A stretch of DNA of 64,000 bases, from assembly GCA_964007475.1 (NCBI GenBank), contig OZ023274.1, forward strand, positions 56,257,851 to 56,321,850. The letters run 5' to 3'. The translations under genes and the position numbers were made by a program. The stretch comes from Hybos culiciformis. Lineage: Eukaryota; Arthropoda; Insecta; Diptera; Hybotidae. This document shows, in pieces, positions 3,714 to 53,179 of this stretch. The stretch's first letter is position 1. Every line of letters starts with the position of its first letter. A model generated the notes under the pieces. The model had not been told where the DNA came from and did no database searches. It saw nothing but the letters and a program-made list of their open reading frames with translations.

Positions 3714-3925
3714 TCATAGGAACTGCCGAAAGAAGTTTATACTTAAAGCTTTAAACTATGAAATAACAGTGGCTATAAATGATGGGTTGCTCAGTACAAA
3801 ATGTAAATTAAAATAAAAATCAGTCCAGGAGTCCAAAAGCAGTCCCTTATTTGTAGTCATTGTTATTTCATAGTTTAAAGCTTTAAGTATAAACTTCTTT
3901 CGGCAGTTCCTATGACTGCTTCGTG
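3714..3925. repeat. Fold-back hairpin repeat, copy 1
   Basis: It is bounded by CACGAAGCAGTCATAGGAAC and its complement. The arms are perfect for about 65 bp, with a short unpaired centre. Related copies are at 25,517-25,734, 27,507-27,724 and 46,276-46,497. The arms contain AGAAGTTTATACTT, which resembles the palindromic terminus at the other end of the same arm. Confidence 0.8.
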
Positions 3926-3944
3926 TTTTTTTTTATATTTTGAG

Positions 3945-4110
3945 CCAGGACGACTCCAAAAGTTTTGGGTAGCTAGCTACCCAAAACTTTTGGGCAGGTA
4001 ATCTATATTTCACCGGCGCTACCTATTTAAAAAACTTTTTTTTTTGCATATTTTAAGCAGGGAAGACCCTAACCATAGCTCCCTATCCTAAATTTTTGGT
4101 CAGGTAATTC
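3945..4110 (-). repeat. Two ~100-bp units bearing ccaaaa/ttttgg palindromes
   Basis: The units contain ggtagctccggtgaaataaa-like sequence, ggtaatct and cccaaaactttTGGG-type palindromes on the minus strand. Related units recur at 5985-6240, 24,601-24,810, 44,015-44,260 and 46,098-46,260, so this is a dispersed tandem family. Confidence 0.65.
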
Positions 4111-5984: not shown

Positions 5985-6240
5985 TTTTTTTGGGCAGGTA
6001 ATCTCCATTTCCGAGCTACACCTATTTTGAAAAAAAATTATTTTGGTATATTTTGAGGCGGGAAGACTCTAACTGTAGCTCCGTACCCAAAATTTTTGGT
6101 CAGGTAATCTAATTATTTCACCGGAGGGAAAATTTTTTTTTAACATATTTTGAGCCGGCACGACCTAACCGTAGGTCCCTGCCCAAAAAATTTTCGGCAC
6201 GTAATCTTTATTTCACCGGACCTACCTATTTTGAAAAATA
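5985..6240 (-). repeat. Three ~100-bp arm units
   Basis: Three consecutive diverged units, each with a ggtaatct block, a caaaatttttgg-type palindrome and a gggaagactctaac-like block. They match 44,015-44,260 inverted. Confidence 0.6.
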
Positions 6241-6888
6241 AATTTTAGTTGTTAAATAATTTGTAAACGAAAGATTTTTAAAAAATAATTTGAATTTAAA
6301 TTTTCCGCGCTAAATTATTTTGTTTTTATAAATGACAAATGATTATTGAACTACCTAATTTGAAAAAAAAATTAAATTTTAAAAAATTTGTAAACGAAAG
6401 ATTTTTAAAAATAATTTGAATTTAAATTTTTCGCGCCAAATTATTTTGTTTTTATAAATAACAAATGATTATTGAGTGGACTCATTTTTTTGAGTATTCA
6501 AACGGTACAGCATGTCGTTTTTTTTTAACTCGAAATTCGAATGAGTAAAATAATTTTTCCCCCTACCTAAAGAAGTATAAACTTCAAAAATTGTATTCCA
6601 ATAAGAAAAAATAGTTTATTTTTTATTTTCTTCAAATCAAAAACGTAAGGTTTTATTTAAAATTAGATGTTGGTTATACAATTTAGTTTTTAACGTTTTT
6701 TATATTATATCCATTTTTAATAGGGAATACCAAGAAATTCCAAATAAAAGACTTAAATAAATAATAAAGTGGATTAATTTTAATTTTGTAATAATATTGT
6801 AAAATATATTTAAATTAAAAAAAAATTTTTTTTTTAAAAATAATATTTATTGCAAATTCCATAAAATATTTAAATTTTGATTTTTTTT

Positions 6889-24834: not shown

Positions 24835-25056
24835 TTCAGACTTTTTTAATTTCAAATATATGTATATATAGGACCCAATATTACAAGCAAAAAAATTACA
24901 TAGCCTACCAATAAAAAAATTTTTGTTTCTTAAACCTATTATTATGTTCAAAAAAATTTAAAAATTTAAAAAAAAAAAAGTATTCTTTGGGAATCGAACC
25001 TGACACCCTCACTCTCATAGTCTGAAGTTCTAGCCACTAAGCCATATCGTCCATAT
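24835..25056 (-). mobile_element. Second copy of the tRNA-like inverted-repeat element, left arm lost
   Basis: The inner part (aatttcaaatatatg to aaaaaaagtattc) matches 19,390-19,520. The right arm on the minus strand (25,056-24,991) keeps the A-box-like tggcttagtggctagaac and the B box ggttcgattcc. The left arm is cut near 24,835. Confidence 0.65.
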
Positions 25057-25516
25057 GATTTTGGATTTCTAAAATATAATTAAAAAATTCTAATTTATGA
25101 CATTTTATTATAAGTTATAATGTGCAGTGCCATTTTTCCCTCTATTTTATTATCTAATATGTTTATAAAACTTCTGTTTTAGATTTTAAGATTTTTAAAG
25201 TAGAATAAAACTCGCACATTTTTTTATGATATTTTGTTATAAGTTGCAATGTGCAGTGCGATTTTTTTCCTTTTTTTTATTATCTAATATTTATTATCTA
25301 ATATTGAATGTTTGTTAACTTGTTTTAGATTTTAAGATTTTTAAAGTAGAATAAAACTCGCACATCTTTTTATGATATTTTATTATAAGTTGCAATGTGC
25401 AGACGAATTTTTTCCCTTTTTTATTTAGAACGGTTGTCTTCTGTTTTAGAAAACATAATTTTTTTGCATTATACAATTAATATTGGTAATCAGGATGAAT
25501 ATTATTGAAAAAAACA

Positions 25517-25734
25517 CACGAAGCAGTCATAGAATTGCCTACAGAAGTTTATACTTGAAAATTTAAACTATGGAATAACAGTGGCTACAAATGATAGGCT
25601 GCTGAGTACAAAATGTAAATTAAAATAAAAATATTTTAATTTACATTTTGTACTGTCATTTGTAGCCACTGTTATTTCATAGTTTAATTTTTTTAAGTAT
25701 AAACTTCTGTAGGCAGTTCTATGACTGCTTCGTG
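25517..25734. repeat. Fold-back hairpin repeat, copy 2
   Basis: Same ends (CACGAAGCAGTCAT) as the hairpin at 3714 but a diverged subtype: ttgcctacagaagtttat in place of ctgccgaaagaagtttat, and longer pairing towards the centre. Confidence 0.8.
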
Positions 25735-26306
25735 TTTTTTTTGTTATCTTTTGTGTTGGTGTTTTTTGAGTTACCATTTTGATTAAGAAAATATAATTTT
25801 TAATTAATGCAAAATTTGTATAAAGTGAATCGTATTTTTTAATTAGAGACCAATTTTTTTTTAATTTTCTTAGTTATTATATTTTTGAGACCCAAATTGA
25901 ATAAAACTAAGATCATGTTTTTTGTGTAAAAAATTATTTCCAAAAAAAATATTACTTACCTATCCTTTTTTTATCCTATTGTAAAAAATATAAATAAGTC
26001 TTTTAATGAATCTTTTAAAATCTTTTGATGAATCTTTTAATTAAAATTAATTTAGTTAAATTCAAATTGTTTTGGTAATAATTTTTTTTCAATTTTATTA
26101 GGTACTTGTTTATTTAAAGCAAAACTTACAACTTTATTATAATTTTGTGTAATTTCTTTGCAGATCGTGATTTAAAAATGCTACACTTATTGTCCCGAAA
26201 TATAAAAAAATTATTGTGTAGATGATGTTGATTAGAATACATTACAATATTTAACTTTGTACACTAAAATTTCAGTTCAGGATACTATTTTAAAACTGAG
26301 TATGTA

Positions 26307-26734
26307 AGTTAATTTCTTACCTAATTAAAACTCTTTTTTAATTTATTTTTTTAATATTTTATTTATTGATTATTTAAATTTTAAAATATAATTCAGTCAA
26401 AGATCTAATAATAACTAAACTTAATTTCTAAATACATTTTATTTATATAAAAGGTGTAATACAATTTTACAAAACGAAATAAAGTATTAGTGACACATTT
26501 AACTTACTAAAGGTAAACGATCTTTTGTTTTGATTTAAGGTAATTAAAACAATTCTAAAGGTCAATGTCTCTTGAAGTGAAAATGATGAAAATGCAAAAT
26601 AATGCAATTTGAAACATTAAGAAATTGAGCATATAAAGAAATAATAGTTTTGTTGATTAATTAAGAAATTGTTTTTCTAAGCTAAGAATAATTTATTAAG
26701 AAATAATATTTCAAAATTAACTTGGTCGTTAACT
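26307..26734 (-). repeat. LTR copy inside the first duplication unit
   Basis: Same 428-bp sequence as 28,297-28,724, including AGTTAA/TTAACT ends. It is present because of the 1,990-bp tandem duplication, not because of a separate insertion. Confidence 0.85.
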
Positions 26735-26980
26735 CTTCCCCTCTTAAAAGCGAATGTCCTCATTTGCTTAAGGTAGAGACGTTAAATAAAATTCTCGGCT
26801 TTGGAACAATGGGTTCATATGGTTTGAGTTCATTTTCGTTTCTTATGGTTGCCGAAGATGGCTGTGGTTCCTTCAGATTATTTTCTACTTTAATAACACT
26901 TTTATTTCTTTTTCTGAGGACAAGGATTACCAAAAAAATGATTACAATGATTATGATAAGGCTATAATTGATGGTTTGAT
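26735..26980 (-). pseudogene. Duplicated 3' end of the env gene
   Basis: The minus strand carries the last ~75 codons of the env gene at 28.7-30.1 kb (the hydrophobic IIIIVIIFLVILVL segment and the cytoplasmic tail). It is cut at the duplication junction at 26,980, so it has no upstream part. Confidence 0.85.
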
Positions 26981-27506
26981 GAATCGAACCTGACACCCTC
27001 ACTCTCATAGTCTGAAGTTCTAGCCACTAAGCCATATCGTCCATATGATTTTGGATTTCTAAAATATAATTAAAAAATTCTAATTTATGACATTTTATTA
27101 TAAGTTATAATGTGCAGTGCCATTTTTCCCTCTATTTTATTATCTAATATGTTTATAAAACTTCTGTTTTAGATTTTAAGATTTTTAAAGTAGAATAAAA
27201 CTCGCACATTTTTTTATGATATTTTGTTATAAGTTGCAATGTGCAGTGCGATTTTTTTCCTTTTTTTTATTATCTAATATTTATTATCTAATATTGAATG
27301 TTTGTTAACTTGTTTTAGATTTTAAGATTTTTAAAGTAGAATAAAACTCGCACATCTTTTTATGATATTTTATTATAAGTTGCAATGTGCAGACGAATTT
27401 TTTCCCTTTTTTATTTAGAACGGTTGTCTTCTGTTTTAGAAAACATAATTTTTTTGCATTATACAATTAATATTGGTAATCAGGATGAATATTATTGAAA
27501 AAAACA

Positions 27507-27724
27507 CACGAAGCAGTCATAGAATTGCCTACAGAAGTTTATACTTGAAAATTTAAACTATGGAATAACAGTGGCTACAAATGATAGGCTGCTGAGTACA
27601 AAATGTAAATTAAAATAAAAATATTTTAATTTACATTTTGTACTGTCATTTGTAGCCACTGTTATTTCATAGTTTAATTTTTTTAAGTATAAACTTCTGT
27701 AGGCAGTTCTATGACTGCTTCGTG
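27507..27724. repeat. Fold-back hairpin repeat, copy 3 (duplicate of copy 2)
   Basis: It appears identical to 25,517-25,734, offset by 1,990 bp as part of the tandem duplication. Confidence 0.8.
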
Positions 27725-28296
27725 TTTTTTTTGTTATCTTTTGTGTTGGTGTTTTTTGAGTTACCATTTTGATTAAGAAAATATAATTTTTAATTAATGC
27801 AAAATTTGTATAAAGTGAATCGTATTTTTTAATTAGAGACCAATTTTTTTTTAATTTTCTTAGTTATTATATTTTTGAGACCCAAATTGAATAAAACTAA
27901 GATCATGTTTTTTGTGTAAAAAATTATTTCCAAAAAAAATATTACTTACCTATCCTTTTTTTATCCTATTGTAAAAAATATAAATAAGTCTTTTAATGAA
28001 TCTTTTAAAATCTTTTGATGAATCTTTTAATTAAAATTAATTTAGTTAAATTCAAATTGTTTTGGTAATAATTTTTTTTCAATTTTATTAGGTACTTGTT
28101 TATTTAAAGCAAAACTTACAACTTTATTATAATTTTGTGTAATTTCTTTGCAGATCGTGATTTAAAAATGCTACACTTATTGTCCCGAAATATAAAAAAA
28201 TTATTGTGTAGATGATGTTGATTAGAATACATTACAATATTTAACTTTGTACACTAAAATTTCAGTTCAGGATACTATTTTAAAACTGAGTATGTA

Positions 28297-28724
28297 AGTT
28301 AATTTCTTACCTAATTAAAACTCTTTTTTAATTTATTTTTTTAATATTTTATTTATTGATTATTTAAATTTTAAAATATAATTCAGTCAAAGATCTAATA
28401 ATAACTAAACTTAATTTCTAAATACATTTTATTTATATAAAAGGTGTAATACAATTTTACAAAACGAAATAAAGTATTAGTGACACATTTAACTTACTAA
28501 AGGTAAACGATCTTTTGTTTTGATTTAAGGTAATTAAAACAATTCTAAAGGTCAATGTCTCTTGAAGTGAAAATGATGAAAATGCAAAATAATGCAATTT
28601 GAAACATTAAGAAATTGAGCATATAAAGAAATAATAGTTTTGTTGATTAATTAAGAAATTGTTTTTCTAAGCTAAGAATAATTTATTAAGAAATAATATT
28701 TCAAAATTAACTTGGTCGTTAACT
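28297..28724 (-). repeat. 3' LTR of the errantivirus-like element
   Basis: On the minus strand it starts AGTTAACGACC right after a purine tract and ends in AATTAACT, giving perfect 6-bp inverted ends AGTTAA/TTAACT. Length is 428 bp. It is about 99% identical over 330 bp to the truncated LTR at 56,168-56,498. Confidence 0.85.
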
Positions 28725-28739
28725 CTTCCCCTCTTAAAA
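28725..28739 (-). promoter_or_regulatory. Polypurine tract
   Basis: The minus strand reads cttttaagaggggaag directly before the LTR start. This is the expected place for the plus-strand primer of reverse transcription. Confidence 0.75.
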
Positions 28740-28749
28740 GCGAATGTCC

Positions 28750-30099
28750 TCATTTGCTTAAGGTAGAGACGTTAAATAAAATTCTCGGCTTTGGAACAAT
28801 GGGTTCATATGGTTTGAGTTCATTTTCGTTTCTTATGGTTGCCGAAGATGGCTGTGGTTCCTTCAGATTATTTTCTACTTTAATAACACTTTTATTTCTT
28901 TTTCTGAGGACAAGGATTACCAAAAAAATGATTACAATGATTATGATAAGGCTATAATTGATGGTTTGATGAATTATTTTTTCTGTTTGAATTTCATGGA
29001 TTTTAAGAGTGTTATTTATCTGAAGCTCTTTCATTGATTCTAACGATAGTATTTCATGGAAATCTTTTTTAAATGAAGCGGGTTGTAATATTGCAGGAAG
29101 TGGATTGAAAGAAGATATTTCTTTCGAAATAAATGATTTGTTATCAATTTTTACAGTTGAATTATGAAATTTAATAAGAAACGTTCCGTTAAGAAAATAA
29201 GACTTATTACCATTGAATTGATTCAGTAGCAAAATTCCTTCTGATATTTCGCTCACCGTTGAAATATGATGCGAATTTATTTTATTACAGGTAGATTCTA
29301 AGCTTTTCAGAAGATTGGGGATGCAAGTAGAATTTTTTATATTACTTAAGTTGTTTATATTACAAATGGTTATTTTATTGATCGTTTTACATGAAGTTTT
29401 TTTGATACCAAAAATATTTTTATTATTTTTGAAAATATTATTAAAAGTTAACTCTGGAATTATATTATTGTTTTTAATTGGGTATAATGACAATTTATTA
29501 TAAGTTTCATTAGTAGTGAGAGGAATATTTATGATGTAAAGTAAACAAACATTATTTGTAGAAATTTTTATTTCATTAAAGTCTAAAGCTTCTTCAGGCG
29601 TGTCAAACGGCAAATTTTCGGATTCTAAAGTTTGTGTAGCTAATTTTAATTCGGATTGAGATAGCAACATTGAATTAACCATTCTCAATTTCGCCCAATG
29701 AATTGCGTAGACAATATTAGTTTGTTCTTCTTTTACAATTTTGATTTTATATTGAAGATGGTGGATTAATTCATTGTCAGCATAATTTGATTGTTTTAAT
29801 GCATTAGAAATGTAATTTGTTATTTTCGTAATATTATTAATTCTATCATTATAAAGTTGATTTATGATAACCTGTTTATTATTATTTTGCAGAGCTTTAT
29901 TGATTTTATTTGTGATTATTTGGAAATCTTCGTGATCAGGATTTCCAGCAATCCATTTCCAAGTGGTACCTATGATATCGAGGGATCTCTTCTTAATGTT
30001 GTGTGGTTTTAGGTTCTGTAATAGGTCTCGTATTTGGATTGTTTCATAATTGAGATAGGGGTAAAGTGAATTTTCCTTACTAATATTCATTTGAGCCAA
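28750..30099 (-). CDS. env: Envelope-type protein of the errantivirus-like element
   Basis: An uninterrupted 449-codon frame directly upstream of the 3' LTR, after pol. The features fit the envelope of insect errantiviruses, a family related to baculovirus F proteins. A basic motif (KKRS, about residue 37) is placed like a furin-type cleavage site and is followed by a Gly-containing hydrophobic stretch. Asn-linked glycosylation motifs are frequent. A transmembrane segment IIIIVIIFLVILVL lies about 65 residues before the end, with a charged cytoplasmic tail. I see no N-terminal signal peptide at the chosen Met, so the start may lie further upstream or in a spliced leader. It is the only frame of this element without a visible break. 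Confidence 0.7.
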   Translation of the reverse strand: MAQMNISKENSLYPYLNYETIQIRDLLQNLKPHNIKKRSLDIIGTTWKWIAGNPDHEDFQIITNKINKALQNNNKQVIINQLYNDRINNITKITNYISNALKQSNYADNELIHHLQYKIKIVKEEQTNIVYAIHWAKLRMVNSMLLSQSELKLATQTLESENLPFDTPEEALDFNEIKISTNNVCLLYIINIPLTTNETYNKLSLYPIKNNNIIPELTFNNIFKNNKNIFGIKKTSCKTINKITICNINNLSNIKNSTCIPNLLKSLESTCNKINSHHISTVSEISEGILLLNQFNGNKSYFLNGTFLIKFHNSTVKIDNKSFISKEISSFNPLPAILQPASFKKDFHEILSLESMKELQINNTLKIHEIQTEKIIHQTINYSLIIIIVIIFLVILVLRKRNKSVIKVENNLKEPQPSSATIRNENELKPYEPIVPKPRILFNVSTLSK

Positions 30100-38101: not shown

Positions 38102-38707
38102 AGGTATAAAGAACAAGACAAAATAAAACATAAAAATTCCCTTCTCTTTTGAGAAGAAAATATAAAGAAGAAAATACAAAAGAGAAAAAAGTACCGTTTT
38201 TTTATATTCAAATACGAAGTTATTGAAGAAGAGGTAGAAGGGGTAAGAAATATTGCTTGAAAAAAAAATAAATTATGTTCCCGTTACTTTGTTTATTTTT
38301 CTTCTTTTATCTTCTTCTTTACAAAGCTCCAAGTCGACTTTTACCGACCACTCACTGCTAAAAGAAAATTACCAACGACCGCGACTGGAGCGACTCAAAT
38401 CGGCTCCATACTAAAAAATTTATAAAAATTATTGAAAAAAAATCAAAAATATAAAAAATTTCACAGCCGATTGTAGCTGATTTTTTGGATCGACGGCGAC
38501 CAATTAATTTTTTGCCAATTTCTTCGGCGACGGTTGTGTTTGACCGACTGAGGTCAGCGACTTCGCGCTCTGCTTCTTTATTTAAATTTTATTTTAATTT
38601 CTCTCAAAATAAACAAAAGTGATAAACAAAATTGACAATGTATTTGTGCAAAAATAATAATAAATCATCGGATAATCGTAAAATCAAATTTAATTACGAG
38701 ATTTTAG
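38102..38707. other. Former upstream region of the Crypton gene, plus unassigned sequence
   Basis: If the unit 38,708-53,102 is removed, this sequence lies directly 5' of the Crypton gene. 38,641-38,684 is an imperfect direct repeat of 54,688-54,731. A second shared block, actttgtttatttttcttct, is at 38,286 and 54,764. 38,335-38,575 is GC-richer with several cga/tcg words and is unidentified. The target duplication gattttag is at 38,700-38,707. Confidence 0.5.
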
Positions 38708-39404
38708 CAGGGCTGCCAGATTGGGGAATTTTTTCCCCAAACTGAGGAAATTTTTATTCTCGGGGGGAAAAAAAAAGTTAAAAAAAAACGTGGGGAAAAA
38801 TTTGAGGAAAATATTTTTTTCTGAGGAAAATTTGAAGAAATTCAAAAATATTGTGCTAACGTTGGCAATCAACAATATTTAAAATTTCAGACTCGTCAAT
38901 TTTTTTTACCCTAATAATTTTAAGAAATTGATGTCATTACCATTCTTGGCGCCGTGACATTTGTCCGCGGGACATTTGTCCGCGATGAAATTTGTATGGA
39001 AAACTTCGCGGACAAATGTCATTTTTATGTCCACGTTACAAAAACAAATCGCGGACAAATGTCCCGCGGACAAATGTCCAACCCCCCCATTCTTCTACGT
39101 ACCTTGAACTCAAAATCCATTGTTGGAACTAAACTTTTTGATTTAGAACATTATAAGTACCGCATAAAATCTGAACATATTAAAAATTTGAGGAAATCTT
39201 GCAAAAATAAGCTGTTTTTGGGGAAAAACTGCAGTGAGTAAAACAGTTAAAAAATTGTTTTTTCTAATTTAGGGCAAAAAAAAATTTTAGAACACGAAGA
39301 TATAAAAAAAAAAAAATTTGAGGAATTTTTTTCAAAAAGTGTCTGTTTTGGGGAAATTTCTTAAGAATTTGAGGAAATTTCATTAATTCCATCTGGCAGC
39401 CCTG
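38708..39404 (+). mobile_element. hAT-like non-autonomous element, copy 1
   Basis: Perfect 14-bp terminal inverted repeats CAGGGCTGCCAGAT and 697 bp. Internally it has short inverted repeats around gacatttgtccgcg (38,956-39,080). The left flank is gattttag and the right flank is ctctcagc, so the 8-bp flanks do not match each other; they match those of copy 2 crosswise. It has no transposase. An open frame of about 95 codons at 38,954 spans the internal repeats and is not a gene. Confidence 0.85.
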
Positions 39405-39412
39405 CTCTCAGC

Positions 39413-41955
39413 GGAAGTCATAGTACAAAAAGAAAGGTAATTGAAAAGCCCGTGTTTTTCTAAAACATTGTATATGTCTAAATCCTACACTGAGAAAAAT
39501 CGTAGAGCAAAAACTTTTAAATTTCCTGTTTTTGTTCTAGAATTTTTTACAGTGTCGAAGATAGGGCTGAATCCATAGTACGAAAAGAAAGGTAATTGAA
39601 AAGCCCGTGTTTTTTTAGAACATTATATATGTCTAAATCCTACACTGAGAAAAATTCTAGAACAAAAACTTTTAAATTTCCTGTTTTTGTTCTAGAATTT
39701 TTTACAGTGTAGAAGATAGAGCTGAATCCATGGTACGAAACGAAAAGTAATTGAAAAGCCCCTGTTTTTCTAAAACATTGTATATGTCTAAATCCTACAG
39801 TGAGAAAAATCGTAGAACAAAAACTTTTAAATTTCCTGTTTTTGTTCTAGAATTTTTTACAGTGTAGAAGATAAGGCTAAATCCATAGTACGAAAAGAAA
39901 GGTAATTGAAAAGCCCGTGTTTTTCTTGAACATTGTATATGTCTAAATCCTACACTGAGAAAAATTCTAGAACAAAAACTTTTAAATTTCCTGTTTTTGT
40001 TCTAGAATTTTTTACAGTGTAGAAGATAGGGCTGAACTCATGGTACGAAACGAAAGGTAATTGAAAAGCCCGTGTTTTTCTGGAACATTATATATGTCTA
40101 GATCCGACACTGAAAAAAATTGTAGAACAAAAACTTTTAAATTTCCTGTTTTTGTTCTAGAATTTTTCACAGTGTAGAAGATAGGGCTGAATCCATGGTA
40201 CGAAACGAAAGGTAATTGAAAAGCCCGTGTTTTTCTAGAACATTATAAATGTCTAGATCCTACACTGAAAAAAATTGTAGAACAAAAACTTTTAAATTTC
40301 CTGTTTTTGTTCTAGAATTTTTCACAGTGTAGAAGATAGGGCGGAAGTCATAGTACAAAAAGAAAGGTAATTGAAAAGCCCGTGTTTTTCTAGAACATTG
40401 TATATGTCTAAATCCTACACTGAGAAAAATTCTAAAACAAAAACTTTTAAATTTCCTGTTTTTGTTCTAGAATTTTTTACAGTGTAGAAGATAGGGCTGA
40501 ATCCATGGTACGAAACGAAAGGTAATTGAAAAGCCCGTGTTTTTCTAGAACATTATATATGTCTAGATCCTACACTGAAAAAAATTGTAGAACAAAAACT
40601 TTTAAATTTCCTGTTTTTGTTCTAGAATTTTTCACAGTGTAGAAGATAGGGCGGAAGTCATAGTACAAAAAGAAAGGTAATTGAAAAGCCCGTGTTTTTC
40701 TAGAACATTGTATATGTCTAAATCCTACACTGAGAAAAATTCTAGAACAAAAACTTTTAAATTTCCTGTTTTTGTTCTAGAATTTTTTACAGTGTAGAAG
40801 ATAGGGCTGAATCCATGGTACGAAACGAAAGGTAATTGAAAAGCCCGTGTTTTTCTAGAACATTATATATGTCTAGATCCTACACTGAAAAAAATTGTAG
40901 AACAAAAACTTTTAAATTTCCTGTTTTTGTTCTAGAATTTTTCACAGTGTAGAAGATAGGGCGGAAGTCATAGTACAAAAAGAAAGGTAATTGAAAAGCC
41001 CGTGTTTTTCTAGAACATTGTATATGTCTAAATCCTACACTGAGAAAAATTCTAGAACAAAAACTTTTAAATTTCCTGTTTTTGTTCTAGAATTTTTCAC
41101 AGTGTAGAAGATAGGGCGGAAGTCATAGTACAAAAAGAAAGGTAATTGAAAAGCCCGTGTTTTTCTAGAACATTGTATATGTCTAAATCCTACACTGAGA
41201 AAAAATCTAGAACAAAAACTTTTAAATTTCCTGTTTTTGTTCTAGAATTTTTTACAGTGTAGAAGATAGGGCTGAATCCATGGTACGAAACGAAAGGTAA
41301 TTGAAAAGCCCGTGTTTTTCTAGAACATTATATATGTCTAGATCCTACACTGAAAACAATTGTAGAACAAAAACTTTTAAATTTCCTGTTTTTGTTCTAG
41401 AATTTTTCACAGTGTAGAAGATAGGGCGGAAATCATAGTACAAAAAGAAAGGTAATTGAAAAGCCCGTGTTTTTCTAGAACATTGTATATGTCTAAATCC
41501 TACACTGAGAAAAATTCTAGAACAAAAACTTTTAAATTTCCTGTTTTTGTTCTAGAATTTTTTACAGTGTAGAAGATAGGGCTGAACTCATGGTACGAAA
41601 CGAAAGGTAATTGAAAAGCCCGTGTTTTTCTGGAACATTATATATGTCTAGATCCGACACTGAAAAAAATTGTAGAACAAAAACTTTTAAATTTCCTGTT
41701 TTTGTTCTAGAATTTTTCACAGTGTAGAAGATAGGGCGGAAGTCATAGTACAAAAAGAAAGGTAATTGAAAAGCCCGTGTTTTTCTAGAACATTGTATAT
41801 GTCTAAATCCTACACTGAGAAAAATTCTAGAACAAAAACTTTTAAATTTCCTGTTTTTGTTCTAGAATTTTTTACAGTGTAGAAGATAGGGCTGAATCCA
41901 TGGTACGAAACGAAAGGTAATTGAAAAGCCCGTGTTTTTCTAGAACATTATTTTT
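39413..41955 (+). repeat. 155-bp satellite, 17 monomers, with dimeric higher-order pattern
   Basis: The block ggtaattgaaaagcccgtg recurs every 155 bp from 39,436 to 41,916. Two monomer types alternate in the middle of the array: one with gcggaagtcatagtacaaaa and one with gctgaatccatggtacgaaa. Each monomer contains an almost perfect hairpin of ~30-bp stem (ctacactgagaaaaattct ... tttttacagtgtag) around aaatttcct. Confidence 0.95.
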
Positions 41956-42578
41956 TGATCATTTTCCTGTTTTACATTTCACAAAACTATAACCCAAAAG
42001 CAATATAGAAAAATTTTAAATAGCAACGGCCTAAATGAATTAAATAAATAAATAAAATAAAAAATTAAATAAATAAATTATATAAATAAATTAAATAATT
42101 TATTTATTTATTTAATTTATTTATTTAATTTGTTAATTTAATTTATTTATATAATTTATTTATTTCATTTTTTATTAAATTTATTTATTAAATTCGTTTA
42201 GGCCGTTGCTATTTAAAATTTTTCTATATTGCTTTTGGGTTATAGTTTTGTGAACTGTAAAAAAAAAAAATACATTTCACAAAACTATAACCCAAAAGCA
42301 ATATAGAAAAATTTTAAATAGCAACGGCCTAAATGAATTAAATAAATAAATAAAATAAAAAATTAAATAAATAAATTATATAAATAAATTAAATAATTTA
42401 TTTATTTATTTAATTTATTTATTTAATTTGTTAATTTAATTTATTTATATAATTTATTTATTTCATTTTTTATTAAATTTATTTATTAAATTCATTTAGG
42501 CCGTTGCTATTTAAAATTTTTCTATATTGCTTTTGGGTTATAGTTTTGTGTACTGTAAAACAGGAAATTGATCAAAAA
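41951..42578. mobile_element. Two tandem ~290-bp palindromes within one fold-back element
   Basis: 41,973-42,259 and 42,271-42,559 are nearly identical. Each is a perfect palindrome with arms tttcacaaaactataaccca ... ggccgttgct and an AT-only centre (aaataaataaat). Outer ends ttttgatcattttcctgttt and its inverse enclose both, suggesting an internal duplication of one fold-back. Confidence 0.85.
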
Positions 42579-43623
42579 TATAAACGAAATAAAACCGATA
42601 TAAATATAATACCATGAACTCTTCAAATTTGTTCGAACTTTGTTTTATTTTCGGATTTAAATAAAAAATTGTTTTTGGATAACTAAAAAATTTTATGAGG
42701 TTTTTGTATGGTTAACTATGAAAAGTATTAGAAGTACAATAAGCGCTACGACAGTCTAGATAATTTTTTTTTTTGTTCTGTTTTCAAAATTCACATTTAG
42801 TTATCGCACCTACCTTGTGTATCTTCAAGTGTTGTTAATTTGTTTAAATTTTTACCCATCGGTGTCTGAGGTTGAGTAGAATGTCTCTGGTTAATATACT
42901 TGAACTCTTTAAATTGAGTCAAATATTTATTTTTGTTGTGACTGTCCAAAGAAGAACAGAACAAATTTTAATTTCCAATTTCAAATAATTCTTATGTTAT
43001 TCAGCCCAATAATTATTATTGATTTTTATTTTTTTCTTGGTTTTTCGTCGAAGCTATTTTTTTTTGGTATGTGTTAATTTTACTTTTTAAATAAAAATTT
43101 ATTAAATATGAATATTTATTTTTTTGAAATAATTTATTTATACTTATTTGTCGAGACTTGTTATTAAAATATTTAGAATAATAAAATAAAATATTTTCTT
43201 ATTTAATTAAAAATCCAAATAAAAATGAGTTCAAAAATGTCAAAAATTCGAATGAGCATATTTAAAATTTCTTATTTTTTTCTGTCTGGGCCTTACTTTG
43301 TTTTTTTTTTTTCCTTTTTTTTTATGGAAATTATTTATTTATTTAAAACTTTTAATTTTCCTTTTCACTTTTTTTTTTTTTTATTTAATATTTGTAAGAG
43401 CCACGAACTCAATATAATGGTTATTTGGGCTCTGAAATCGTTTTAGTAAATTCATTTACTTATTCTTATATAATATTTATCATTATTTTTTACAAAGTTT
43501 GATTACATAATTAAGTTCTATTAATTTTTTAACAATATAATAATACTCCTTGTTTAGTGAGAAAAAAAAATAACAAATTAAAATTAAATTTTCTTTCCAG
43601 TTTTTATGTAACAAATTTTTTGA
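42579..43623. other. AT-rich spacer, no gene seen
   Basis: No motif-bearing frame. The 73-codon open frame near 43,225 is poly-Phe from T runs. Confidence 0.55.
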
Positions 43624-44260
43624 AGTTTATACTTCTTTTAACGCGGTGTATGATATAAATGAGTAATTCTGTAGGGGGTAAAAATTTTTTTACTCATTCG
43701 AATTTGAGTTAAAAAAAAAAACGACATGCTGTACCGTTTGAATACTCAAAAAAAATGAGTCAACTCAATAATCATTTGTTATTTATAAAAACAAAATAAT
43801 TTGGCGCGAAAAATTTAAATTCAAATTATTTTTAAAAATCTTTCGTTTACAAATTTTTTAAAATTTAAATTTTTTTTCAAATTAGGTAGTTCAATAATCA
43901 TTTGTCATTTATAAAAACAAAATAATTTAGCACGGAAAATTTAAATTCAAATTATTTTTTAAAAATCTTTCGTTTACAAATTATCTAACAACTAAAATTT
44001 ATTTTTCAAAATAGGTAGGTCCGGTGAAATAAAGATTACCTGCCGAAAATTTTTTGGGCAGTGACCTACGGTTAGGTCGTGCCGGCTCAAAATATGTTAA
44101 AAAAAATTTTTTCCTCCGATCAAATAATTAGATTACCTGACCAAAAATTTTGGATACGGAGCTACAGTTAGAGTCTTCCCGCCTCAAAATATACCAAAAT
44201 AATTTTTTTTTTTTAAATAGGTAGCTCGGGTGAGAAATAAAGATTACCTGCCCAAAAAAA

Positions 44261-46097
44261 AGGAAGGAAGTGAAGGCGGCAGTAAGGGCTGAAGAGAGGG
44301 CGGCAGTAAGGGCTGAAGAGTGGTCGGAAGGGAGGGCGGAACGGAGTACAGAAGTTAGGGCGGAAGTTAGGGCGGAAGTTAGGGCGGAAGTGAGGGCGGA
44401 AGTTAGGGCGGAAGTGAGGGCGGAAGTGAGGGAGGAAGTGAGGGTGGAAGTGAGGGCGGAAGTGAGGGCGGAAGTGAGGGCGGAAGTGAGGGCGGAAGTG
44501 AGGGCGGAAGTGAGGGCGGAAGTGAGGGCAGAAGTGAGGGAGGAAGTAAGGGCGGAAGTGCGGGCGGAAGTGAGGGCGGAAGTGAGGGCGGAAGTGAGGG
44601 CGTAAGTGAGGGCGTAAGTGAGGGCAGAAATGAGGGCAGAAGTGAGGGCGGAAGTGAGGGCGGAAGTGAGGGCGGAAGTGAGGGCGGAAGTGAGGGCGGA
44701 AGTGAGGGCGGAAGTGAGGGCGGAAGTGAGGTCGGAAGTGAGGGCGGAAGTGAGGGCGGAAGTGAGGGCGGAAGTGAGGGCGGAAGTGAGGGCGGAAGTG
44801 AGGGCGGAAGTGAGGGCAGAAGTGAGGGCAGAAGTGAGGGCGGAAGTGAGGGCGGAAATGAGGGCAGAAGTGAGGGCGGAAGTGAGGGCGGAAGTGAGGG
44901 CGGAAGTGAGGGCGGAAGTGAGGGCGGAAGTGAGGGCGGAAGTGAGGGCGGAAGTGAGGGCGGAAGTGAGGACGGAAGTGAGGACGGAAGTGAGGACGGA
45001 AGTGAGGGCGGAAGTGAGGTTGGAAGTGAGGACGGAAGGGCGGGCGGAAGGGAGGGCGGAACGGAGGACAGAAGTTAGGGCGGAAGTTAGGGCGGAAGTA
45101 AGGGCGGAAGTTAGGGCGGAAGTGAGGGCGGAAGTGAGGGAGGAAGTGAGGGTGGAAGTGCGGGCGGAAGTGAGGGCGGAAGTGAGGGCGGAAGTGAGGG
45201 TGGAAGTGAGGGCGGAAGTGAGGGCGGAAGTGAGGGCGGAAGTGAGGGCGGAAGTGAGGCGGAAGTGAGGGCGGAAGTGAGGGCGGAAGTGAGGGCGGAA
45301 GTGAGAGAGGAAGTGAGGGCGGAAGCGAGGGTGGTAGTGAGGGCGGAAATCAGGGTGGAAATCAGGACGGAAGTGAGGGCGGAAGAGAGGTTGGTAGTTA
45401 GGGCAGAAGTGAGGACGGAAGTGAGGGCGGAAGTGAGGTTGGAAGTGAGGGCGGAAGTGAGGGCGGAAGTGAGGGCGGAAGTGAGGGCGGAAGTGAGGTC
45501 GGAAGTGAGGGCGGAAGTGAGGGCGGAAGTGAGTGCAGAAGTGAGGGCGGAAGTGAGAGTGGAAGTGAGGGCGGAAGTGCGGGCAGAAGTGAGTGCGGAA
45601 GTGAGGGCGGAATTAAGGTGGAAGTGAGGGTGGAAGTGAGGGCGGAAGTGAGGGCGGAAGTGAGGTCGGAAGTGAGGGCGGAAGTGAGGGCGGAAGTGAG
45701 GGCGGAAGTGAGGGTGGAAGTGAGGGCGGAAGTGAGGGCGGAGGTGAAGGCGGAAGTGAGGGCGGAAGTGAGGGCGGAAGTGAGGGCGGAAGTAAGGGCG
45801 GAAGTGAGGGCGGAAGTGAGAGCGGAAGTGATGGCGGAAGTGAGGGCGGAAGTGAGGGCGGAAGTGTGGGCGGAAGTGAGGGCGGAAGTGAGGGCGGAAG
45901 TGAGGGCGGAAGTGAGGGCGGAAGTGAGGGCGGAAGTGAGGGCGGAAGTGAGGGCGGAAGTGAGGGCGGAAGTGAGTGCGGAAGTGAGGGCGGAAGCGAG
46001 GGTGGTAGTGAGGGCGGAAATCAGGTTGGTAGGGCGGAATCAGGTTGGTAGTTAGGGCAGAAGTGAGGGCGGAAGTGAGGGCGGAAGTGAGGGTGGA
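44261..46097 (+). repeat. 12-bp minisatellite, unit GAAGTGAGGGCG (plus strand)
   Basis: About 153 units, inverted relative to the array at 4111-5984 and placed at the same point of the arm. It is purine-rich on the plus strand. Variant blocks (gaagttagggcg at 44,350-44,410 and 45,070-45,120, gaagtgaggacg at 44,965-45,000) differ in order from the left array, so the two arrays have evolved separately. Long Ala-Glu-Val-Arg frames across it are repeat artefacts. Confidence 0.95.
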
Positions 46098-46275
46098 ATT
46101 ACCTGACCAAAAATTTTGGAGAGGGAGCTATGGTTAGGGTCTTCCCTGCTTAAAATATGCAAAAAAAAATGTTTTTTAAATAGGTAGCGCCGGTGAAATA
46201 AAGATTACCTGCCCAAAAGTTTTGGGTAGTTAGCTACTTTTAGAGTCGTCCTGGCTCAAAATATAAAAAAAAACA

Positions 46276-46497
46276 CACGAAGCAGTCATAGGAACTGCCG
46301 AAAGAAGTTTATACTTAAAGCTTTAAACTATGAAATAACAGTGGCTATAAATGATGGGCTGCTCAGTACAAAATGTAAATTAAAATAAAAATCAGTCCAG
46401 CAGTCCAAAAGCAGTCCATTATTTGTAGTCATTGTTATTTCATAGTTTAAAGCTTTAAGTATAAACTTCTTTCGGCAGTTCCTATGACTGCTTCGTG
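46276..46497. repeat. Fold-back hairpin repeat, copy 4
   Basis: CACGAAGCAGTCATAGGAAC ends, nearly identical to the copy at 3714-3925, placed at the outer end of the right arm. A long T run follows. Confidence 0.8.
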
Positions 46498-46700
46498 TGT
46501 TTTTTTTTTTTTTTTTGGAACATATTTTTCGCTTTATTCTTATTTTATTTCATTTATTTATTTATTTATTTTTTTTTAACTTAATATTTGAGATTTGACA
46601 TTTATATTTATTATATATATTATACAAATTGGAAAAAATGTCGGTTTTATTTTTAATTTTTTTTTTTTTTTTTGCCTCTTGCATATTTAAATTATATTTT

Positions 46701-49700
46701 TTAAATTTTGTTATATATTCCAATCTTTTTTATGAAACTTATTATTTTTTGATAGTTTTTCTTACTATCAGAAGAAAGAATTTTTATGCTATTTATGTTA
46801 AATATAATCCTTTGCCTGTTATATAAGGAACAGTTTTCAAATATATGTTTTACTGTAAGTTTTTCTTGTAACTGGTTGGAGTTACAAATTGGGGGGGTTA
46901 TTTTTTTAAAAATATGATCATGAGTTAATGCTGTGTGTCCATGTCTTAATCTTGAAATAATTATTGTATCTTTTCTTTTTAGTTTATTTAAGTTTTTCCA
47001 AATGGGTATGCTATCTGTAATTTCTTTTAACTTGTCCGTGCGTTCATATGCTCTCCATATTAGTTTGAATATTTCTTTTATTTCTAAGTTGACAACACTT
47101 TGAAAGTCTGTATAAATACAATTATATTTTTTATCAATAGGTAGAGTGATAGATTCTTTTGCCAGTTTATCGACTTCTTCGTTGCCACGTATATTTACAT
47201 GAGACGGTACCCATATGAAAGCAAATGAGTTTTTGGATAAATATATATTGTGTTTTATTTTTTGAGCTAATGTGGGGACGGGAATGGGTTTTTTAATTGC
47301 AAGGAGTGCACTGAGTGAATCTGAAACTATTAATATATTTTTTTGAGAGAAATTTTTATTTACGTAGTTGATCGCGGCACTGATGGCATATAATTCGGCA
47401 GAAAATATACTGGTATGTTCGGGTAGATGAATTAATTTTTTATATTTGTTGAATTTGAAGGCACATCCAGTTTGATTTCCATGGAGGGATCCGTCAGTAA
47501 AGATTCTTTCGAAATTTTTAAATTTTGTATTTATTAATTCAAAAAATTTTTTTCGAATAATTTTTGGCAGCGTGTTTTCTTTTTTTCCAGAAGTTACTGT
47601 AAGGTCTATATTTATTGGGTTTCCGCACCAATAAGGATGTTGTAAATGTTGTTGTGTTTCAATTTTTTTATCTTTTATTATATGTTCTATTTGTTTTTTT
47701 ATTCTTACATAACAAGGTTGGATTCTTTCTTTTCCATTTACTAGGCTTTTATAAGTGTTTTGGCCTCTAATATGGCTGGTGAGAGGATGATTATTAAACG
47801 ACAAAATTTTTAATCCGTAAAGCATAGCTTGTTTTTGTCGTCTTAGTCCTAGAGATAATTGCCCATTGTCTACTAATAAGCTTGTAATAGGAGAAGTTCT
47901 ATGTGCTCCTGTTGCAATCCTAATACCTGTGTATAAAATAGAGTCAAGAGAGTTAAGTAATGTTTTGCTAGCTGAACTATAAATCCAGCTGCCATACTCC
48001 AAAGTAGGAAGAATAATTTGATTCAAAATTTTCAGTAAGGTTTTGTAATCTGATCCACAATAAGAATGACTGAGAATTTTTAATATATTTAAATTTCTTT
48101 GAGCTTTAGCTTTTATTTCTTTTAAGTGTACTTTCCAATTTAATTTTGTATCGAATGTTATACCTAATAATTTTTGTAGTTGGACATATTTAATTTTTTC
48201 ATCGTAGAAATATAGATCGGGATAGTAAAAATTTTTTGTACGTCTAGTAAAGAGCATATCTACCGTTTTAGTTTGAGAGAATTGGGATCCAGTTTTTTCT
48301 GACCAAATAGTTAGTTTATTTAGAATATTTTGCATGTTTTTTTGCATAATTTTAAGATTCCGACCAGTAATGAAAACCGTAAGATCATCAGCGTAAATAG
48401 TAAAATTTGCTGTAGGCGCTATTTCCTTAACCACACTGTTAATATGAACTAAAAATAATAGGACTGAAAGAACAGATCCTTGCAAAATTCCGTTTTCAAT
48501 TGTTTTCTCTTCCGATATTTCATTTGCAGCAGAAATTTCTATTTTTCTTTCCTTTAAAAAATTATAGACAAAAAACAATAAATTCCCTGTTATTCCAATT
48601 TTTTTTAATTCCTCTATTACCCCTCTTCTCCAAGTCATATCATAGGCTTTTTCGATATCGAAAAAGATAGATAGTGTAAATTGGCCTTTTGAGAATCCAT
48701 TCATTATTTCACTCTCGAAATAAGATAGATTATCTAAAGTAGATCTTTTTTTTCGAAAACCTGATTGATAGTCAGATATAATATTATTTTTTTCCAGGAA
48801 CCAAGAAAATCTTTTACATATCATTCTTTCCAAAAGTTTACACAGACAACTTGTTAAAGATATTGGCCTGTAATTATTAACATTGGTGGAAGTTTTCCCT
48901 GGTTTTAGTATTGGGATTAAAGTAGCTTTTCTCCATGAATCTGGAAAGATACCCTTTTCCCAGATTTTATTATATAAATCTAAAAGTATTATTCTATCAC
49001 ATTTATTTAAGTTTTTTAACATATCATAATGAATTTGGTCTGGCCCTGGTGAGCTTCCTTTACATTCATTTTGGCAGTTTTCCATTTCATTAAGCGAAAA
49101 AGGTATGTTATAATTTTCAGCTGAAGATAAGTGTAGATTTAAAGGAGATTTTTCAATCTTATTTTTATATTGCACAAATTTTTCATCATAATTTTTAGTA
49201 CTAGATATTTTGTGAAATTGTTTCAAAAATTTTTTACATATTTCTTTTTTATCAGTAATTATTTCATTATTATCGACTAGAGCAGTTATTTCTTTTCTAG
49301 ATTTTTTGCCATTTATTGATCTTATTTTGTTAAAAACTTCCGTTGGTCTTGTATTAACGTTAATAGAAGATACGAAATTTTCCCAGCTTTCCTTTTTTTT
49401 TTGTCTTATAAGCTTTCGAGCTTCATATTTTGCACGAATAAATTTTTTGTAGTCCTCAATTTTCATTGTATTTTAATATTTTTTTAGTAGTTTTTTTCTG
49501 TTTTTAATTAGGATGCTAATATCATGGTCCCACCAAGGAACGGTTTTTTTAAAAGAGGATCCTTTATTTATTGGTATCGATTTCTTGGCAGCATTTATAA
49601 TAGAGGAGGTTATTTCTACTGTATATTTATTAATATTACTTTGTGTTATTTCATAATCTGATTTTTTTAGTTTGATATTTTCCCGAAAATAATCCCAATT

Positions 49701-50394
49701 TGCTTTTTTTATTGACCATGTACTTTTAGATTTGGGAGGGCAGTTTGTAGGATATGCAGTTATAATTATGGGAAAGTGATCGCTACTATAAAGATCTTCT
49801 TCAACTTTCCAATGAAATAATTTTGAATTACCGGGCTACAAATAGCTAAATCGATAGCACTATAAGATTTATGGGAAAAACTAAAAAAGGTTGGGCTACC
49901 GTTATTCATTATGCTTAGTCCTAGATTGTGAATTAACTGTTCAACCATTTTTCCCCTTTTGTCGATTTTTTTTGAACCCATAGATAATTGTGACAGTTAA
50001 AATCCCCAACTATTAGGAAAGGACTATCAAATTGTTTAATTATTGTCAGAATTTCATTTTCACTAATATTTCTATTATTTTCTAAATATATATTGCATAG
50101 TATAAATTTTATTGGATACAAAATTTTCACAGCAACTACCTGAAGATTTGTATTCAAAACAATTTCATTAGAATTTACAGAATCTTTAATATATATTGCA
50201 ACACCACCGTGAGCTACAGAGTTTGAATCAAGATTTTTATAGTAAATATTATAATTCTTCTTTTTTGGAATATGATTTGATCGGAATTTAGTTTCCTGTA
50301 TACAACAGGCTAAAGGATTATATTTTTTAATTAGTAGATCGAATTCTTCTAGATGACTATACAACCCATCAGAATTCCATTGTATTATGTCCAT
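46701..50394 (-). pseudogene. ORF2 of an I-clade LINE: endonuclease, reverse transcriptase, RNase H
   Basis: ORF2 starts at ATG 50,394 (MDIIQWNSDGLY), overlapping the ORF1 stop by 26 nt. Endonuclease blocks are CIQETKF, HGGVAIYI, IVGDFNCHN and SSDHFP. The last 921 codons (49,466-46,701) are uninterrupted: RT with FFDIEKAYDMTW (about residue 270 of this stretch) and the catalytic YADD (358-361), then RNase H with IFTDGS, SAELYAI, VSDSLSAL and NEEVDKLAK, so all four acidic residues are kept, and a Cys-rich end. An RNase H domain fused after RT is typical of the I clade. Breaks: frameshifts in the endonuclease near 49,975 and 49,800, and one in-frame stop near 49,470. The polymerase half looks intact. 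Confidence 0.85.
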
Positions 50395-51689
50395 GTGGAA
50401 TATTGGTGTCGAAAAGATCATCATCTTCACTACTATTAGTGATATTACTACCACTAAAATTGAACATATTTTTTTCATCTGAATTAATTCTTTCTATTCT
50501 TTTTTTTTTTCTTTCTTTATTTAATTTTTTAAGTTCATTTTTTTTTTTTTGAGAAATATTTTTGCTTATAATTATATTACCATTTTCTAAGATTTTTGAG
50601 GCAGAAATATTTTGTGTTGTTAATTTTTTTTCGTTGTTATTATTTGACATTTTTATATTTTCTATTTTATTTTGATTTTTTACAAAATTTTGTGTTGGAA
50701 TATTATTTACCTTAAAATTAGCGCTATTTGAGGTAGTTGGCTCTTCAGGATTCCTTTCATAATTTCCATTGCAAGAACATTTACAGCCACAGGTTTTCGT
50801 ACTATTTCCAGCTACTGTTGCAAAAGTTTTTGTGAAAGGGAAGCGAGCATTGTATCTTCTTATTGCTTCTTTTATGTCCACGTTCTCTTTAATTTTAATT
50901 GTTTTTATTTCTTTTTCTTTTAAAAATTTGGGACATTTGTTATTTAAAGCATTATGTTCTTCTTTACAGTTGACGCATTTGGGAGTTTTTTCACATTTTG
51001 CATTTTGTTCGAGATGATAATTCTCACCACAATTGAGAACATATTTTTATTTTTTTACATTTTTCAGAAACATGGTTGAAGCTGAGGCAGTTGAAACATC
51101 TTAATGGTAACGGGACAAATTGCCTAACATTGTATCTCTGATACCCTACATATACTTCATTTGGTAAAGTTGGAGTTGCGAATTTTAGACAGTATAGACC
51201 AGTTTCCTTAACATCATCACCTATTTTCTTTCTGAATCTTTTAATTTCAACTACTTTTTGGTCTTTCATTTCTTCCAGAAACTCTTGATCTGTGATGTAT
51301 TGTATATCTGAACTGTAAATTACACCTCTGGCAAAGTTGAGAGACTTATGTTCCTCAATTTCAACATTAATGTTATTATTAAAACTTGTTATTTGAACTA
51401 ATTTTTCAGCTTGTTTAATGTTTTTAACTTGAACGAGAACTGTTCCGTCTCTAATTTTGACGCATTTTTCCACATCACCAGCCACACTTTGAATTACTTT
51501 TTTTAGTAAGAAGGGTGAGACCGAGCTCATATCTTTGTTTGCATCTACTCTTTTGATAATTAGAAACCTTTGTCCCTCGTTTTGGTTAGACAATTTTTTC
51601 GATTGATCAGAAAAGATTGATGGATTTGTCGAAAAATTTTGTGAATGGAACATTCCTCCTGTCGGAGGAAGTCCAGTTCCAAACATCAT
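50369..51689 (-). pseudogene. ORF1 (gag-like) of the I-clade LINE
   Basis: It starts at ATG 51,689. The N-terminal part has an RRM-like segment (VLVQVKNIKQAEKLVQI) and a GVIYSSDIQYITD block. Zinc knuckles follow: CFNCLSFNHVSEKC (CX2CX4HX4C), then after a frameshift near 51,030 CVNCKEEHNALNNKC. The C-terminal half is Asn/Lys-rich and low complexity and ends MEF at 50,369. This is the nucleic-acid chaperone partner of ORF2. One frameshift separates two otherwise open halves. Confidence 0.75.
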
Positions 51690-52065
51690 AAAGTTATTTA
51701 TTTTACTTTTGAAATTAATTTATTCTTTTTTTTTTTTTTTTTAAAGATTCCAAAAGATAAAGTATATAGACCCTTTTTTTTTTTTTTTTTTAGGTATAAT
51801 ATTTTTGATCTTAATGCTTTTGTTTTATTTTTTAATTATTATACTTGAAAATTGGCAAAAAAACAGGTCTGCTCTGCACAAGAGTGAATAGGAGACTGTC
51901 CTTTTCACTATTTCTTATTTTTTATTTTTTTAAATATTTTTAAATTTATTTTAATTTTTAATATTTTTATTAATTTATTATTATTACAAAGAAAAAAAAA
52001 AAAATTAAATTGAATATGCGAAAAAGAAAAACAAACGTATTGTTGTCAAATTTTATTTTATGTGT
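51690..52065 (-). other. Probable 5' untranslated region of the I-clade LINE
   Basis: T-rich on the plus strand (A-rich in the sense of the LINE), with a ttggcaaaaaaacaggtctg / gtgaataggagactgtcc block near 51,850-51,900. The exact 5' end was not found. Confidence 0.4.
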
Positions 52066-52350
52066 GTTTAGTGTCAGACGCCGACGCCGATGTGTTTTTG
52101 TCCGCGCTGACGAGCGTTGAAAAAAAAAAGTAAGCGACGGGTAGCGCCATCGGCGTGCAAAAAAAAAACAAACAAAAAAAAATAAAAAAAAAAATAAAAA
52201 ATAAATAAAAAAAAAAGCCACAAAACAAAAAAAATGTGAAAAAAAGAACTAAATAACCGAAAAAATATAAGAAATTTTTTTGGCACGCCGATAAAAAATA
52301 TAAAATTCTCCGCCGAGCATTTTCTTCTCGGCGTCGGCGTCTGTTTAGTG
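52066..52350. mobile_element. Short fold-back element with cggcgtcggcgtct ends
   Basis: agacgccgacgccga at 52,077-52,091 is inverted at about 52,331-52,345, and an inner pair atcggcgtgc/gcacgccgat borders poly-A. The core is almost only A with some C. No TSD seen. Confidence 0.6.
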
Positions 52351-52406
52351 TAGCTTGTGTGTGTGTAGCTTGTGTGTGCGTTGCACAATAAAATATGTCT
52401 CTCAGC

Positions 52407-53102
52407 CAGAGCTGCCTGATTGGGGAATTTTTTCCCCAAACTGAGGAAATTTTTATTCTCGGGGGGAAAAAAAAAGTTAAAAAAAACGTGGGGTAAAATT
52501 TGAGGAAAATATTTTTTTCTGAGGAAAATTTGAAGAAATTCAAAAATATTGTGCTAACGTTGGCAATCAACAATATTTAAAATTTCAGACTCGTCAATTT
52601 TTTTTACCCTAATAATTTTAAGAAATTGATGTCATTACCATTCTTGGCGCCGTGACATTTGTCCGCGGGACATTTGTCCGCGATGAAATTTGTATGGAAA
52701 ACTTCGCGTACAAATGTCATTTTTATGTCCACGATACAAAAACAAATCGCGGACAAATGTCCCGCGGACAAATGTCCAACCCCCCCATTCTTCTACATAC
52801 CTTGAACTCAAAATCCATTGTTGGAACTAAACTTTTTGATTTAGAACATTATAAGTACCGCATAAAATCTGAACATATTAAAAATTTGAGGAAATCTTGC
52901 AAAAATAAGCTGTTTTTGGGGAAAAACTGCAGTGAGTAAAACAGTTAAAAAATTGTTTTTTCTAATTTAGGGCAAAAAAAAATTTTAGAACACGAAGATA
53001 TAAAAAAAAAAAAATTTGAGGAATTTTTTTCAAAAAGTGTCTGTTTTGGGGAAATTTCTTAAGAATTTGAGGAAATTTCATTAATTCCATCTGGCAGCCC
53101 TG
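52407..53102 (+). mobile_element. hAT-like non-autonomous element, copy 2
   Basis: About 99% identical to 38,708-39,404 in the same orientation, 696 bp. The left end has two changes (cagagctgcctgat) and the right end is perfect. The left flank is ctctcagc (52,399-52,406) and the right flank is gattttag (53,103-53,110), the reverse assignment of copy 1. Confidence 0.85.
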
Positions 53103-53179
53103 GATTTTAGTTTAATATTAGCATTGGTGCAGTAGAGTATAAAGTTTTGTGTGCGAATTTAATATTACGCTATACTACA

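Follow-up and report, generated by a model that had tools for sequence, protein, structure and literature searches.

In the assembled genome of the fly Hybos culiciformis (342 Mb, 509 contigs), a stretch of 64,000 nucleotides (C2:56257851-56321850, here referred to as the window) contains a block that is bounded by two short hAT transposon copies with swapped flanking octamers, and this block, its ends included, stands at two places in the genome with two different target duplications. We suggest that the block is probably a composite ('macro') transposon in which directly oriented hAT ends moved as a unit, and that it originated from one insertion by a transposition event involving sister copies. 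Both hAT copies and the cargo between them most likely moved through the genome as one unit; we infer this movement, and with less certainty the origin from a single insertion at CTCTCAGC.

The swapped-flank block and its second copy

The two hAT copies in the window (697 and 696 bp) both lie on the plus strand and are 98.996% identical over 697 columns. Their outer flanks both read GATTTTAG and their inner flanks both read CTCTCAGC, and the coordinates, octamers and shared orientation agree letter for letter with those in an initial annotation of the sequence. The right terminal repeat ATCTGGCAGCCCTG is unaltered in both copies, and the left terminal repeat differs between copy 1 (CAGGGCTGCCAGAT) and copy 2 (CAGAGCTGCCTGAT). 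The components that define the two ends of the block are:

38700..38707, no strand: outer target duplication, left copy (GATTTTAG); a single octamer in the block-free counterparts
38708..39404, plus strand: left hAT copy, 697 bp and non-autonomous, of which about 140 bp are a nested insert; the composite begins on the left with the 5' end of this copy
39405..39412: inner octamer CTCTCAGC, left side
52399..52406: inner octamer CTCTCAGC, right side
52407..53102, plus strand: right hAT copy, with two changes in its inner 5' repeat; the composite ends on the right with the 3' end of this copy
53103..53110, no strand: outer target duplication, right copy (GATTTTAG)

The chance of equal random octamers in the window is p=2.2e-4 for one pair and p=4.8e-8 for two pairs. 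Independent insertions, which the initial annotation had already judged unable to give this arrangement, are rejected in view of the crosswise octamer matches (p about 5e-8), and the same pattern is seen again on contig C1. There, the block occupies 79453882-79459810 on the minus strand and its hAT pair lies at 79453882-79454593 and 79459118-79459810, likewise on the minus strand. Read in window orientation, the flanks of the C1 block are AATAAGAT/CTCTCAGC ... CTCTCAGC/AATAAGAT, i.e. the inner junctions are identical in both blocks and the outer duplications differ (GATTTTAG in the window and AATAAGAT on C1), and each block consists of copies in direct orientation bounded on the outside by one target duplication. 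The cargo common to the blocks amounts to about 3-4.5 kb and comprises CTCTCAGCGGA, a satellite, two 298-bp units, a middle segment and about 540 bp ending in CTCTCAGC. This common cargo is about 1-2% diverged between the blocks, with mismatches of 7/427 in the segment mid1 (some of them at the alignment end), 8/347 in the segment mid2 and 5/481 in the left flank. The interior of the C1 block also has a private 1.6-kb insertion (L009/L010, about C1:79455.4-79457.0 kb) with the ends GGAACGTAGTTCCTTA and TAAGGAACTACGTTCC.

Both targets have relatives without the block. With the block removed and the outer octamer counted once, the resulting target construct of the window matches the genome at C506:16568-16602 with 0 mismatches and a single octamer, and at C1:66067651 with 1 mismatch, which falls in the octamer (reading AATTTTAG there). 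Among the longest matches listed, C506 is 94-98% identical to the window on both sides near the target, with weaker and patchy similarity farther out, and on the right C1:66.07 Mb has an identity of 93% with the window. The two sites are 93.9% identical to each other over 737 columns across the target, and both belong to the repeat that hosts the window block. The target construct of the C1 block matches C388:89694 with 1 mismatch; on one side, C388 resembles C1 for about 2 kb (91-97%). On the other side the resemblance covers 0.3 kb (98%) and resumes for 1.6 kb (93%) beyond an 8-kb stretch found only in C1. Judged by these alignments, the block-free counterparts appear to show the pre-insertion form of the targets. 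The empty site that the initial annotation had proposed to look for in other individuals or related assemblies thus has counterparts with a single octamer in the same genome, possibly as paralogues, for both targets.

The hAT family and the parts of the cargo

The genome has 1745 candidate hAT copies, of which 40 were scored, so that copy numbers are lower bounds. A query carrying the nested insert, a miniature inverted-repeat transposable element (MITE), was matched over its full length by 10/40 scored copies, and 30/40 are without the nested insert. Five of those 10 are at least 96% identical, namely the two window copies, the C1 pair and a solo copy on C3 that carries its own duplication, ATGCAATA. 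The insert itself is palindromic (TGTCCGCG repeats; window 38953-39078 and 52651-52776) and marks the same 10/40 scored copies, and some hAT copies carry a longer version of it (810 bp in all).

A family control of 28 loci gave 27 complete copies from 26 loci, with none from L035 and L042; a complete copy was defined by the presence of both terminal repeats, CAGGGCTGCCAGAT/ATCTGGCAGCCCTG, with up to 4 substitutions. Four of the 27 are the ends of the two blocks. Because 21 of the 23 remaining copies carry their own matching 8-bp duplication (20 perfect and 1 with one mismatch), swapped flanks are not a habit of the family. The two exceptions without a matching duplication are L037 and one copy of a palindromic pair (L027, C1:58295900-58298150). 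The latter pair, with its hAT copies about 400 bp apart, has a geometry that suits reversed-ends transposition; considered as a second composite, this inverted pair at C1:58.296 Mb reads as a palindromic duplication of one insertion together with its flank and was rejected.

The two octamers differ in how specific they are. With ≤1 mismatch, the genome has 2 matches to the hAT 3' end plus an adjoining CTCTCAGC, and these are in the two blocks. In the case of GATTTTAG followed by the hAT 5' end, there are 3 matches at ≤1 mismatch, of which one is the window. The others are an unrelated MITE-less copy with exact GATTTTAG in different surroundings (C1:125029742) and a MITE-less copy with AATTTTAG before its 5' end, also in other surroundings (C1:6836702); we read the octamer beside these two copies as a matter of chance or site preference. 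The initial annotation had named the chance presence of the same octamers beside other hAT copies as an observation that would speak against its interpretation. For CTCTCAGC at the 3' end nothing of the kind is found outside the blocks at ≤1 mismatch, and GATTTTAG at the 5' end turned out to be less special. Since GATTTTAG also flanks an unrelated MITE-less copy, it is weak evidence when taken alone, and the strong evidence is the pairing of the octamers.

Between its two ends, the window block has the following parts:

39405..39415, no strand: CTCTCAGC followed by GGA, all that is left of the right flank at the inferred donor site; over GCGGA the sequence also agrees with the satellite (5-bp microhomology)
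39411..41951, plus strand: 155-bp satellite, about 16 units (about 6.6 in the C1 block)
41973..42560, plus strand: tandem pair of near-identical MITE-like units of 298 bp, found in both blocks
42561..43330, plus strand: middle segment
43331..43369, plus strand: first part of the segment with homology to the host site, its beginning being uncertain by about 20 bp; it ends in the left duplication of the long interspersed nuclear element (LINE), 43360-43369
43370..51899, minus strand: LINE with endonuclease, reverse transcriptase and RNase H domains, flanked by CCTTTTCACT; not in the C1 block
43671-46504: 12-bp minisatellite element, in the 3' part of the LINE
51900..52406, plus strand: right LINE duplication (51900-51909), then the remainder of the captured left flank up to and including the inner CTCTCAGC

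The LINE duplication CCTTTTCACT is 10 bp long, with one copy on each side of the element. In the C1 block the LINE and the minisatellite are both missing and the LINE target reads through uninterrupted, from which we conclude that LINE and minisatellite came after the blocks had separated. The proposal in the initial annotation that 14.4 kb, including the LINE and the minisatellite arm, moved as one block is therefore not upheld. It is possible, and less simple, that the LINE entered a parent of the window block and rode along. The 12-bp minisatellite element (TTCCGCCCTCAC) has a strong GC skew, and its occurrences in the window at 3697-6566 and 43671-46504 are inverted relatives of each other (88%). 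Elsewhere in the window, 24991-26984 and 26981-28974 are 1.99-kb direct copies, arranged head to tail and 100% identical, that adjoin a Gypsy-like element with an envelope-like frame (28750-30099; PF07253), a protein type whose host range suggests an insect; these copies are possibly terminal repeats or a recent duplication.

As to the source of the cargo, the part of about 540 bp has one further relative in the genome, at C1:81872115 (32-base pattern, ≤3 mismatches). This site at C1:81.87 Mb, referred to as the host site, shares its strand with the C1 block, from which it is 2.4 Mb away. It runs unbroken through CTCTCAGCGGATGCGG, with CTCTCAGC passing directly into GGATGCGGCGCGG, and has neither a hAT copy nor the satellite. 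Left flank, octamer and GGA are contiguous at the host site; in the block they are found at opposite ends with other DNA between them. Homology between block and host site stops after CTCTCAGCGGA, 3 bp past the inner octamer, and the satellite follows; since the satellite itself has GCGGA at this position, the junction lies within a 5-bp microhomology. The other junction of the captured DNA is in AT-rich sequence. Examined by eye, the captured flank looks promoter-like or first-exon-like, with a possible exon and then GTAAAATA just past the octamer (L017), and a frame near the host site (L017 9123-9641, C1:81875123-81875641) resembles the C-terminal part of a hAT transposase.

Outside the blocks, the satellite is found mainly in one other setting. 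Its pattern has 19 matches in the genome, 10 of which are in the two blocks and six in a tandem 5.83-kb repeat at C1:85.96 Mb (C1:85958000-85971100; L079 is the first 8 kb), each unit of which has several 155-bp satellite units. This repeat was considered as the source of the cargo and rejected: its 30 longest matches to the block all fall in the satellite, so that it is a relative of the satellite and is not evidence on the source of the cargo.

Origin of the block and competing explanations

Combining the two blocks, the block-free counterparts and the host site, we suggest the following scheme: (i) a single hAT copy would have been inserted at a host CTCTCAGC site resembling C1:81.87 Mb, (ii) in a replicating chromosome, the transposase would have paired the 5' end of one sister copy with the 3' end of the other and joined them to a new target, (iii) the broken flanks (11 bp of the right and about 540 bp of the left) would have been joined via captured satellite and middle DNA by microhomology repair, (iv) one block, or a lost parent, would then have transposed again, and (v) the LINE would have entered the window lineage afterwards. 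By our derivation, the product of the second and third steps would be hAT, right flank, new junction, left flank and hAT, with a new octamer outside. For later moves, hAT transposase would be supplied in trans and would act on the two outermost ends, 5' in the left copy and 3' in the right one, with the result that the whole block moves and an 8-bp duplication is generated. Because both inner flanks carry the same octamer, both hAT copies would descend from one insertion. For a target on the right-flank side, the scheme requires a particular orientation with respect to the host site (again by our derivation), and the C1 block has this orientation. Domains of hAT transposases are present in the genome (150 scored matches to PF05699).

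Several observations weigh against this scheme. The five closest hAT copies were aligned with three that are more distant, and columns 188 and 190 of this alignment set the C1 pair apart from the rest. In column 691, the two window copies agree with the solo copy on C3 and differ from the C1 pair and the three distant copies. In no column do the left copies of the two blocks group together, nor do the right copies. A plain move of the block predicts no such locus-wise sites unless gene conversion occurred within a locus; gene conversion between the direct copies explains them, as would separate births of the blocks from a circular or tandem source. An autonomous hAT with both ends was found at 0/30 of the transposase loci examined (of the 150), in a short stretch around each. 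The captured flank differs from the host site in about 7% of the aligned columns (34/464, many of them in poly-A), and no hAT copy or footprint is seen at the host site, which may be related to the donor or be the donor itself after long separation. Only 11 bp of the right flank are kept, of which 5 also match the satellite, and a source of the middle segment was not found: two patterns taken from it (37 and 41 bases, ≤3 mismatches) have no match outside the two blocks. Finally, because similarity stops within the stretches compared, the three block-free counterparts may be paralogues and not alleles, and alone they do not exclude an earlier solo hAT copy at the site.

An earlier solo copy would be the starting point of the explanation in which a circle with one hAT copy and the cargo recombined with a resident hAT copy at GATTTTAG, and a like event took place at AATAAGAT. 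Recombination of this type yields exactly the swapped flanks, the outer duplications and the block-free counterparts are also expected if a solo hAT preceded, and the likeness of the two copies at one locus could stem from different circle variants. However, two independent integrations are needed, into residents that both happened to be MITE-bearing, as are 10/40 scored copies, whereas 30/40 lack the insert, and reciprocal exchange with one circle cannot give both copies at a locus specific sites that differ at the other locus. Moreover, the solo copy in the window target context, which the initial annotation had also suggested to look for, is not among the three matches to GATTTTAG; a solo copy at AATAAGAT was not searched for. 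We consider the circle unlikely, and aberrant hAT transposition with break repair appears to fit better than two circle integrations. Alternatively, a hAT copy entered one unit of a tandem array composed of satellite, middle segment and left flank, unequal exchange copied it, and hAT-unit-hAT transposed. Such an array accounts for the identical inner octamers and for a block at two places with two outer duplications, and the satellite does occur within the tandem 5.8-kb repeat at C1:85.96 Mb, but that repeat shares with the block only satellite among its 30 longest matches, and the middle patterns are confined to the two blocks. In addition, the hAT-free junction expected in a tandem array or a circle has 0 matches in the genome at ≤3 mismatches, and the unit would need to have its breakpoint, by coincidence, no more than 3 bp from the hAT duplication, which is hard to explain if a hAT copy had entered a pre-existing repeat unit at random. 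We consider a tandem array unlikely as well. The composite option raised in the initial annotation is supported with respect to movement by the second block, the new outer duplication and the block-free targets, and the tandemly duplicated parent that formed part of it was not seen.

An error in assembly, in which two hAT loci were cross-joined at a repeat, has in its favor that the hAT copies are near-identical 697-bp repeats. Against it, a second chromosome-scale contig has the same inner junctions together with a matched outer pair of its own, the block-free targets match both outer pairs, and a cross-join would also need cargo running from flank to flank. We consider this explanation highly improbable.

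Relation to known composite elements and significance

Composite DNA transposons are textbook knowledge in bacteria. In eukaryotes, macrotransposition by linked, directly oriented Ac/Ds elements was reportedly described by Huang and Dooner 2008, the outer ends mobilising the DNA between them. The two elements are said to have been inserted separately in that case; here, by contrast, the inner flanks share an octamer, pointing to both copies coming from one insertion.

The closest parallels are in maize. Reversed Ac ends give rise to a product termed composite insertion (Zhang et al. 2014, PMC4270019), a 10.3-kb composite insertion re-inserted (PMC9910405), and sister chromatid transposition with directly oriented ends leads to bridges, breaks, inverted duplications and deletions (PMC3744419). 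The block described here resembles the maize composite insertions (PMC4270019, PMC9910405) in having outward hAT ends, what may be switched flanks fused inside and an 8-bp duplication outside, and in the probable later move of the whole block to a second place. The maize insertions involve marked Ac/fAc ends in reversed orientation and were observed within generations, whereas the block in H. culiciformis has two complete non-autonomous copies, is found in an insect and is known from an assembled genome alone; furthermore, it has kept only 11 bp of one flank, and its junction contains other DNA amounting to about 2.4-3.9 kb.

Compound hAT elements that arose naturally have already been reported from maize. 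In Ds-l4-483 of maize B73 (7344 bp; PMC3260210), a complete Ds-like copy is followed by foreign DNA and then by a second copy that is truncated, and the duplication occurs once more; the same paper mentions a Ds/Ac macrotransposon mobilising up to 100 kb. Similar to our block, Ds-l4-483 is a natural compound in which a complete copy with its duplication is followed by foreign DNA and a second copy ending in a perfect terminal repeat. It differs from our block in the truncation of its second copy and in being described as a single element. The block in H. culiciformis has two complete copies and stands at two places, and its inner octamer is not the same as its outer one. Judged by titles and the openings of abstracts, no composite hAT in an insect is described among the papers that a literature search listed, and by title the papers listed on macrotransposons concern maize, the fish element Teratorn and Chinese cabbage. 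Two insect papers, by title on Drosophila Galileo inversions and on Anopheles P elements, each use the term macrotransposition once.

A broader proposal, which we regard as doubtful and offer tentatively, is that insect hAT ends give rise to composites via sister-copy transposition during replication, capturing promoter-like host DNA and satellite and spreading as mobile units; in this proposal, the locus-wise likeness of the copies could mean that each block budded from a reusable circular source of hAT and cargo.

In one ordinary assembled genome, then, a single composite is present twice. Its octamers are clean, both of its targets have block-free counterparts, and a site that is probably related to the donor site is present as well. 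On the explanation that we favor, these data show a route by which a short non-autonomous hAT turns host DNA and satellite into a mobile block. The swapped octamers suggest a search strategy that can be applied across an assembly, in which pairs of transposons with such octamers are sought, and the sister-copy model becomes testable outside plants.

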